DNA of 55,169 nucleotides from Bifidobacteriaceae bacterium (GTDB lineage: Bacteria; Actinomycetota; Actinomycetes; Actinomycetales; WQXJ01). Location of the stretch: positions 1-55,169 of the forward strand of contig JAITJZ010000011.1 of assembly GCA_031278655.1 (NCBI GenBank). Direction: 5' to 3'. Made by a program: the position numbers and the translations under genes. Under the pieces are notes generated by a model. The model had not been told where the DNA came from, ran no database searches, and was given only the letters and a program-made list of their open reading frames with translations. The first letter of the stretch is position 1. Every line of letters begins with the position of its first letter. Below are positions 11,038-54,979 of this stretch, piece by piece.

Positions 11038-11080
11038 TCTGTCCGCGCGCGCGAACGCTGACACCGCGGCGGCGCGCTCG

Positions 11081-11200
11081 CTTGGGCTCGCTTGGGACCG
11101 GCCCGGCTCGGCTGGGCTCGGCGGGGACCGGCCCGGCTCGGTTGGGCTCGGCTGGGCTCGGCTGGGCCCGGCCCGGCTCGGTTGGGACCGGCCCGGCCCT
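11081..11200. repeat. Twelve tandem 10-bp repeats
   Basis: Exactly 10-bp periodicity over 120 bp. Units vary between cttgggctcg, gcccggctcg, gctgggctcg, gttgggaccg and gcggggaccg, with a loose higher-order order of 'gcccggctcg' followed by 'gntgggnccg' types. The array fills the space between the MBL hydrolase stop and the rph promoter. Confidence 0.9.
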
Positions 11201-22965: not shown

Positions 22966-23002
22966 CAAACGCGCTCGCGGCCAAGCGCGCGCCCCGGCGC
23001 CG

Positions 23003-23243
23003 GTGGTCAAATTGACCAGTCGAGGGCCAAAACCGCGTTGAGTGGTCAATTTGACCACTCCAAAACCAGCCCCGCCCGATGCCGCCGGGCCGGGTTTTCG
23101 TGTTTGGCCAGGTCAAGCCGCCGCGCTGGTTTGGGGTCGTCCGGGCGCGGCCCGGCGCGAGTGGTCAAATTGACCAGTCGACGGCCAAAACCGCGTTGAG
23201 TGGTCAGTTTGACCACTCCAAAACCAGCCCCGCCCGGCGCCGT
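23003..23243. repeat. Palindromic repeat array, copy A (two 158-bp units)
   Basis: One full unit and a partial second unit at exactly 158-bp spacing. Each carries the palindrome GTGGTCAAATTGACC and, 39 bp on, GAGTGGTCAATTTGACCACTC, with conserved spacers such as GGCCAAAACCGCGTTGAG and TCCAAAACCAGCCCCGCC. A near-identical array lies at about 54738-54979. It fills almost the whole gap between the O-methyltransferase and the DUF6541 gene. Confidence 0.95.
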
Positions 23244-48915: not shown

Positions 48916-48945
48916 CGGCGCCGGACAACGGCGATTCCGCAATGC

Positions 48946-49605
48946 TCAATTTGACCACTCTCGCAGGGCCGCGCGAAACACCGCGCCGACGCCCTTGGCC
49001 CCCCTGATCATCTCGCCGGGAGGACCGTGAACCGTTCCATCTGGCTCAACGTCTGGGAAAACGGCAGCCATTTTGTCGAAGAATAAGGGATGCTGGCGGG
49101 CGATTGCCGAATGAATCGACCCGGCACTTCTCGGCTCACGGCTCCGGCCGAGGGAGATTTGATCGAGGACCTCCCGGTAGACGCTCTCATCAACGACCGC
49201 CGTGAGAAACAAGTCAGGATGAACGACAGCCATATTGCGCGCCTCCAAGTCTGTACGACCGAAGTCGCTGACATTGCGCGACACCACAACTGTGATTCCC
49301 GCTTGCGCTGCAGCGGCCAAGACGTGACGGTCATCTGCGTCGGTATCCGCAAAGTCCATCGCGCTGGCCGGATCGGCTGCGGCGACTATGACGTGGTCCG
49401 CCCAGTCGAAACGCGCACGCAATCGCGTCAAGGATGTCTGCCCGGGGCGCAAGTGACGCTCAGCTTCGCACTCGACAGCCAGGCTCCAGCGGGGCGCGAA
49501 CCGACCGCGCGGATGTGTCCCGCACAGGATCAACAGGGTTCGCGTCAGGGGCGCCGCCAGCACATCGGCATCGATGAAGGCGCGGAACCACGTGTCAGAA
49601 GTCAT
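48946..49605 (-). CDS. PIN-domain toxin (VapC-like)
   Basis: 219 residues. Probable RNase toxin. The PIN acidic residues are present: Asp12/Asp14 in FIDADVL, Glu45 in AVECEAE, Asp91/Asp92 in TDADDRHVL, and Asp114 in SRNVSDFG, giving a full catalytic set. The C-terminal 80 residues (DESVYREVLDQISLG...FPDVEPDGTVHG) form an extension beyond the usual 130-residue VapC. ATG at 49605 overlaps the antitoxin gene by 11 bases. The last codons (EWSN, stop) are written by a half-copy of the palindromic repeat, so the natural end may have been replaced. Confidence 0.85.
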   Translation of the reverse strand: MTSDTWFRAFIDADVLAAPLTRTLLILCGTHPRGRFAPRWSLAVECEAERHLRPGQTSLTRLRARFDWADHVIVAAADPASAMDFADTDADDRHVLAAAAQAGITVVVSRNVSDFGRTDLEARNMAVVHPDLFLTAVVDESVYREVLDQISLGRSREPRSAGSIHSAIARQHPLFFDKMAAVFPDVEPDGTVHGPPGEMIRGAKGVGAVFRAALREWSN

Positions 49606-51580: not shown

Positions 51581-51597
51581 AAGGCCTTAAGGCTACC

Positions 51598-51686
51598 CGC
51601 CCAGCAACCGGCCATGCCTCGCCACCACGGCGGCCGCCTGGCGACGCCAAAAGGTCGCGTCAAGCGCCGCCGCCAAAACTAGGCAG
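51598..51686. repeat. 89-bp duplicated segment, copy 1
   Basis: cgcccagcaaccggccatgcc...ccgccgccaaaactaggcag, one mismatch from copy 2 at 54091-54179. It sits 17 bp upstream of ffh. Read on the reverse strand both copies encode CLVLAAALDATFWRRQAAAVxARHGRLLGG, and it contains a GCGAC/GTCGC inverted repeat. Confidence 0.95.
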
Positions 51687-54046: not shown

Positions 54047-54090
54047 CGAGCCCGCCGTCCTCACGCTCGCGCGCGGCCAATCTACCGGCC

Positions 54091-54179
54091 CGCCCAGCAA
54101 CCGGCCATGCCTCGCCAGCACGGCGGCCGCCTGGCGACGCCAAAAGGTCGCGTCAAGCGCCGCCGCCAAAACTAGGCAG
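54091..54179. repeat. 89-bp duplicated segment, copy 2
   Basis: Differs at one base from 51598-51686. It lies 44 bp upstream of the membrane-protein gene at 54046, in the same orientation relative to the following gene as copy 1 has to ffh. Confidence 0.95.
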
Positions 54180-54440: not shown

Positions 54441-54737
54441 CGACCTCCCTGAAACCGTTGACGCCCTCCTCGCTGATCGGAAACCCCGACCCGCGAAGCC
54501 AACCGCTGACGACGCCCCACGCCCCGGCAGGCGCGCCGGGAGGTCCCATGTTCCTGGCAGAAACCCCCAAACACCGGTCCCAAGAATCTGGCATTACGCC
54601 GATGTCGGCATTACTGGCAGATGACAAATTTGACCAGTCCCGAGCCGGCGTAGCCCGGCGCCGCCCGCCCGCGCCCAAGCGTTTCCGCACGTCAGCACCG
54701 AGCCCAGGCCCTGGCCCGCCCAGGCGCGGCCGGGCGC

Positions 54738-54979
54738 GAGTGGTCAAACTGACCACTCGAGGGCCAAAACCGCGTTGAGTGGTCAATTTGACCACTCCAA
54801 AACCAGCCCCGTCCGATGCCGCCGGGCCAGGTTTTCGTGTTTGGCCAGGTCAGGCCGCCGCGTTGGTTTGGGGTCGTCTGGGCGCGGCCCGGCGCGAGTG
54901 GTCAAATTGACCACTCGAGGGCTAAAACCGCGTTGAGTGGTCAATTTGACCACTCCAAAACCAGCCCCGCCCGGCGCCG
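54738..54979. repeat. Palindromic repeat array, copy B (two 158-bp units)
   Basis: Same layout as 23003-23243: palindromes near 54740, 54778, 54898 and 54937, period 158 bp, with the same intervening spacers and only scattered substitutions. Its right edge runs into the transposase start described next. A solo half-copy lies at about 54629-54639. Confidence 0.95.

Follow-up and report, generated by a model that had tools for sequence, protein, structure and literature searches.

Dispersed hairpin arrays in a Bifidobacteriaceae genus, a probable family of short non-autonomous mobile DNA elements

A stretch of 55,169 nucleotides from a Bifidobacteriaceae bacterium (hereafter the window) contains two arrays, A and B, built from the same 21-bp palindrome. 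Are such arrays mobile palindromic repeats, clusters of operators for a binding protein, or just the outcome of one segmental duplication? We addressed this question by analyzing the anatomy of the arrays, their distribution in the host genome and their counterparts in related species.

Anatomy of the repeat unit

The window harbors nine matches to the 21-mer with at most three mismatches, compared with 0.00 in dinucleotide shuffles. Each array comprises four palindromes spaced by 39, 119 and 39 bp, yielding a 158-bp unit, and identity between the two arrays amounts to 95% over 240 bp (94% over 256 bp), as the first-pass annotation had described with respect to both spacing and a near-identical second array at 54738 extending over ~240 bp. 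Two properties of the repeat had been missed. Palindromes are centered on AAATT in the first and on AATTT in the second member of each pair; therefore, one palindrome of a pair is the inverted copy of the other, which makes a 60-bp inverted doublet the natural unit. Further, only four of the eight palindromes are exact (23040, 54777, 54896 and 54935), with three carrying one mismatch and the first one, at 23001, carrying three. The repeat unit consists of a 60-bp long hairpin (arms of 21, loop of 18) and a linker of 98–99 bp. The earlier inventory of two arrays likewise stands, yet it had overlooked a degenerate unit to the left of array B and a solo half-copy (Table 1).

Table 1 Features of the arrays in the window (palindrome starts from a window scan) and stem arms of sister species
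Feature	Position	Strand	Sequence	Remarks
Array A, hairpin 1	23001..23060	+		Palindrome 23001-23021, 18-nt loop, inverted palindrome 23040-23060
Array A, linker	23061..23158	+		98 bp
Array A, conserved linker box	23100..23116	-	TTGACCTGGCCAAACAC	13/17 positions; 6/500 shuffles as good
Array A, hairpin 2	23159..23218	+		Palindromes 23159-23179 and 23198-23218
Solo half-copy, partly decayed	48943..48974	-		Palindrome and left-flank letters; 91% identity over 32 nt
Left of array B, weak degenerate remnant of a further unit	54606..54664	+		Covariance-model match, E ~0.5 for the genome; by eye
Array B, hairpin 1	54738..54797	+		Palindrome starts 54738 and 54777
Array B, linker	54798..54895	+		98 bp
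Array B, conserved linker box	54837..54853	-	CTGACCTGGCCAAACAC	2/500 shuffles as good
Array B, hairpin 2	54896..54955	+		Palindrome starts 54896 and 54935, both exact
Stem arms, G011			GAGTGGTCACAACTGCGGGTAA / TTACCCGCAGTTTTGACCACTC	
Stem arms, G010			GTGGTCAAAACTCGCC / GGCGAGTTTTGACCAC	
Stem arms, G004			CGTCAAACTGCCCTTTCAAG / CTTGAAAGGGCACTTTGACG	
Stem arms, G007			TGACCCCAGTGG / CCACTGGGGTCA	
Stem arms, G005			GACCGAAATGACCGCCGAACG / CGTTCGGCGGTCAGTTCGGTC	

Seventeen doublets were aligned, one of which (C35) is partly degraded. Between arrays, the 60-bp doublet (21+18+21) is 92–98% identical, whereas linker identity ranges from 95% down to 58%. The doublet folds into a single 21-bp hairpin with an 18-nt loop, at predicted energies of -41.2 kcal/mol as RNA (z -10) and -24.1 as DNA (z -9.6). 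Linkers are homologous to one another and no T-run follows the hairpins on either strand, in line with the initial view that the arrays are neither CRISPR nor terminators.

The window contains further repeats. The motif CGGCATCGG occurs 36 times versus 2.6 expected (e.g., at 2680, 4069, 22127 and 54813), mostly inside genes, but also in the array linkers and in relatives, and is possibly a Chi-, uptake- or segregation-type motif. A 91-bp stretch is present at 51596-51686 and, with 99% identity, 2.5 kb apart at 54089-54179. At positions 11076-11197, a 30-bp sequence (GCTCGGCTGGG...) is repeated in tandem about four times, mostly between two predicted minus-strand genes.

Dispersal in the host genome and empty sites in relatives

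The host draft genome (2.73 Mb in 167 contigs, GC-rich) contains 35 matches to the 21-mer with at most two mismatches, distributed over about a dozen sites, compared with 0 for a reversed control pattern, and arrays A and B are accordingly not the only two copies. Of 12 array sites, a tally that includes a further stem family on C135 (AACCCCGGTCAAGTT, with a distance of 167 bp between its two units), six are found no more than 220 nt from the end of a contig, versus ~3% expected. The assembly hence seems to be broken at arrays and the true copy number is probably higher; in genomes of this group, further copies are probably concealed by breaks between contigs. All placed sites are located between predicted genes. 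Array A is separated by ~36 bp from the stop codon of the O-methyltransferase gene that precedes it and by ~46 bp from the 3' end of a DUF6541 gene in convergent orientation, and array C50 is likewise positioned between convergent genes near their stop codons. Remaining arrays occupy convergent, tandem or divergent gaps next to genes of unrelated function, one of them adjoining an FCD/GntR gene; no defence genes were found near the copies.

Arrays A, C50, C158, C122 and C125 have flanks with little in common beyond the unit. Array B (at 54.7 kb), by comparison, shares ~80 bp of its right flank with the C22 array and its left flank with C34. Judged by these flanks, a single segmental duplication, the explanation that had been put forward as the one to exclude, cannot account for the family, though duplication did take place locally. 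The flank common to B and C22 was considered as a mobile element in its own right and rejected, as it offers a 46-aa reading with no NCBIfam hit. A plasmid or phage origin was rejected for want of a DNA match. The 19-mer core is found elsewhere at nine single sites in genome contigs and nine in viral contigs, none of them in arrays, which we read as chance or single operators. At the end of C22 (L038:14250-14606), a cluster of DnaA-box-like TTGTGGATA/TTTTCCACA motifs, likely an origin region, was seen by eye ~400 bp from one array.

Model R2 identifies a hairpin at all three host loci omt/DUF6541, rarA/gntR and dapB (3/3), and no hairpin at any of the three orthologous loci of nine sister species, several of which carry such hairpins at other loci. 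Array positions are therefore lineage-specific. The convergent arrangement of omt and DUF6541 is kept across the genus, with the two genes nearly abutting or overlapping in G012, G009 and G004 and separated by unrelated sequence in G005, G008, G007 and G011. Similarly, the rarA/gntR gap measures ~27 nt in G012 versus ~350 nt in the host. Although empty sites are thus found, the intergenic DNA of the relatives is too diverged to be aligned and to define a target-site duplication.

Stems and linker box across the genus

With at most one mismatch, the palindrome is absent in 17 of 17 other genomes of the family. A covariance model of the doublet revealed the same architecture, built from other stem sequences (Table 1), in a further five species of the genus, with arms of 13–24 bp, periods of 130–167 bp and 2 to 5 units per array. 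Within one element, arms pair in 90% of cells, compared with 59% when arms are combined across genomes, and at least two Watson-Crick types occur at 19 of 21 pairs; these counts were taken on a structure-fitted alignment, but an alignment-free approach recovered the arms as well. RNAalifold reports two-sided changes at 16 of 16 pairs, a count that takes in both strands. Long inverted repeats of this kind are rare elsewhere in the DNA stretches examined by an alignment-free scan. Single arms are not palindromic in most sister species, and the conserved feature is thus the long inverted repeat rather than the 21-mer. Within each species, one stem recurs at several dispersed loci, which amounts to a concerted change of the kind that copying of an element would produce. 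When the model was run against 297 genomes from the order, no clear members were recovered outside the genus; the rest of the order gave two single hits with E values of 0.003–0.006, approximately chance level for 280 genomes, both of which fold as long hairpins.

Linkers, 80–126 bp in length, share a box STGACCTGCGNAAACGC across species, at a distance of ~34–61 nt from the end of the hairpin. Matches were obtained in G000, G004, G005, G010 and G011, with 0–6 of 500 shuffles scoring as well, G011 being no independent test since the search word was derived from it. G007 retains only TGACCTGCGG at a match that is not significant, and no significant match was obtained in array C50. By eye, the box often contains a small inverted repeat, GCG-NAAA-CGC, or CGG-NTTTA-CCG in G007. 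Two linker alignment entries (G011_C392 and G011_C118) have incorrect boundaries and should be disregarded. Arrays upstream of similar GntR/UTRA genes occur in both G010 and G011 (L124:2667-3591 and L128:3362-4400), with stems that differ, possibly marking a shared ancestral array site.

Candidate explanations and known repeat systems

We favor the view, at a probability of roughly 0.6, that the arrays are short non-autonomous mobile DNA elements without genes, forming one family across the genus and resembling REPINs and BIMEs. Observed here are the dispersal of the units, their inverted-repeat anatomy, covariation across species, conservation of the box, positions specific to the lineage and, within the search scope, restriction to the genus. 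The unit would be a long inverted repeat (arms of ~13–24 bp) that forms a long hairpin as a single strand, joined to a linker with the box. At a single-stranded DNA stage, a hairpin-recognising enzyme supplied in trans might copy or move this unit to intergenic sites, where unequal recombination or slippage would give rise to tandem arrays of 2–5 units. Copying would homogenise the stems of each species, while stems would drift between species, both arms together; the elements would presumably lack a host function. A copy number that is low for a REP family and the local spread of some copies (B, C22 and C34, with common flanks) speak against mobile elements, as do the different REP at the resident RAYT, the half-kept box of G007 and the lack of a significant box match in C50. 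More tentatively, the arrays might constitute a new class of hairpin satellites, characterized by a perfect inverted repeat, a box with a mini-hairpin, tandem multimers and a putative single-strand-acting enzyme of rolling-circle or HUH type; being recognised by structure, their stems would be free to change wholesale in sequence from one species to the next.

It appears unlikely that the arrays are operators, the other possibility raised by the first-pass annotation. The 21-mer would in this case bind a dimeric repressor or a nucleoid protein, the site being doubled at 39 bp and differing between species. The near-perfect dyad TGGTC-N5-GACCA is compatible with such a site, as are the far better conservation of the doublet compared with the linker and the 39-bp spacing, which is constant within doublets. 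Copies inside the host species show no covariation and the sequence itself is conserved, as for a site that is read by sequence, and regulator genes of GntR type neighbor one host array (FCD/GntR) and the G010 and G011 arrays (GntR/UTRA). However, the arms are not individually palindromic in most sister species, and operators are a less good account of lineage-specific positions among unrelated neighbors and of a stem that changes between species at many loci at once, genome-wide. Operators for one neighboring regulator family were rejected, as the neighbors are unrelated.

A function as RNA is improbable. Transcribed hairpins in 3' or 5' untranslated regions, stabilising mRNA or stopping transcription, could be selected for structure, which would agree with the great stability of the hairpin, with compensatory pairing across species and with the position of arrays A and C50 between convergent genes. 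Yet the hairpins lack a T-tract, arrays are also located in divergent and tandem gaps, and orthologous genes of relatives do without them; Rfam 15 returned no match above the gathering score, with only chance-level microRNA hairpin hits below threshold.

Equally little weight falls on passive repeats, in which slippage, segmental duplication, gene conversion and quasi-palindrome correction would act with no element-specific copying. Units are very alike within an array, flanks are shared by B, C22 and C34, and hairpin-templated correction alone could produce perfect arms of changing sequence. Linkers are nevertheless 92–95% identical even between arrays with wholly unrelated flanks, and a linker box common to several species together with one stem at many loci per species requires spreading. 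Gene-less, structure-recognised attC arrays of integron type are very improbable: these too are tandem, structure-conserved hairpins with a comparable size and period that are uniform within a species and differ between species, but the arrays described here occupy a dozen dispersed sites without cassettes, their long perfect arms carry no extrahelical bases, and no RYYYAAC/GTTRRRY core-site ends were seen by eye.

Among mobile elements, REPINs are REP doublets that form hairpins (Bertels and Rainey 2011, PMC3116915), and Pseudomonas fluorescens SBW25 harbors the inverted doublet with tandem clusters including flanking sequence (PMC3116915). The arrays resemble them in the inverted doublet with a conserved short spacer that forms one long hairpin (z about -10), in extragenic dispersal over about a dozen sites and in ordered tandem clusters with flanking sequence. 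They differ in that sister arms are not palindromes, the linker box is conserved, and tandem arrays are the rule and single units the exception. An unpaired GTAG or CGTC tag (as defined in PMC3733652) is found at neither palindrome end in the doublet alignment. Alternating palindromes between genes, with short and long linkers, are also a property of enterobacterial REP/BIME, which differ from the perfect 21-mer described here in their usual asymmetry, whereas the present family has few copies and is genus-restricted within our search. REP families without a transposase, CGTC-tagged as well as untagged, have been described (Di Nocera 2013, PMC3733652), and the arrays share with them palindromic dimers for which no dedicated transposase was found. 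CGTC families possess 8–9-bp stems, 4–5-nt loops and an unpaired tag (PMC3733652), in contrast to the untagged arms of 13–24 bp found here; CGTC letters in G004 lie inside the paired stem. Like MITEs, the elements are short, gene-less and bounded by inverted repeats, but neither a target-site duplication nor a parent transposon is defined.

In the current view, REP and REPIN elements are bound up with a single transposase family by which they are recognised. The only RAYT-like Y1 transposase of the host (236 aa, C135:35196, L048:961-2116) scores 69.6 bits against NF047646, below the cut-off of 80, and is flanked by an unrelated REP, AATGGGGACGGTCCCATT, present in five copies and, within the host genome, only at this locus. 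RAYT-driven REPs were thus rejected as the origin of the arrays, the RAYT carrying its own REP. The initial assignment to a REP/BIME type is supported by the dispersal of the copies, their arrangement in inverted doublets and tandem clusters, their location between genes and positions specific to the lineage, and not by the RAYT partner; owing to the different REP at the sole Y1 transposase and the missing GTAG or CGTC tag, we do not file the arrays as REPINs. Hairpin architecture and linker box are retained across the genus, while stems are replaced from species to species and change together inside each genome, next to a mismatched RAYT. This provides a natural series for separating recognition of structure from recognition of sequence and points to an undiscovered mobiliser. 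Palindromes of the form GGGGACGGT, related to AATGGGGACGGTCCCATT, are abundant in the sister species G012.

IS481-like ends abut a hairpin loop in four of four cases found, which come from two species (both ends in C125, C62 and G011:C74; L044:3806-5437, L042:3243-3332 and L128:4392-4507). As the DNA scanned was biased toward arrays, the exact placement at the loop alone deserves note. In C125, outward-facing copies of loop plus arm are present on both sides of the IS481-like element, which suggests recombination between IS copies.
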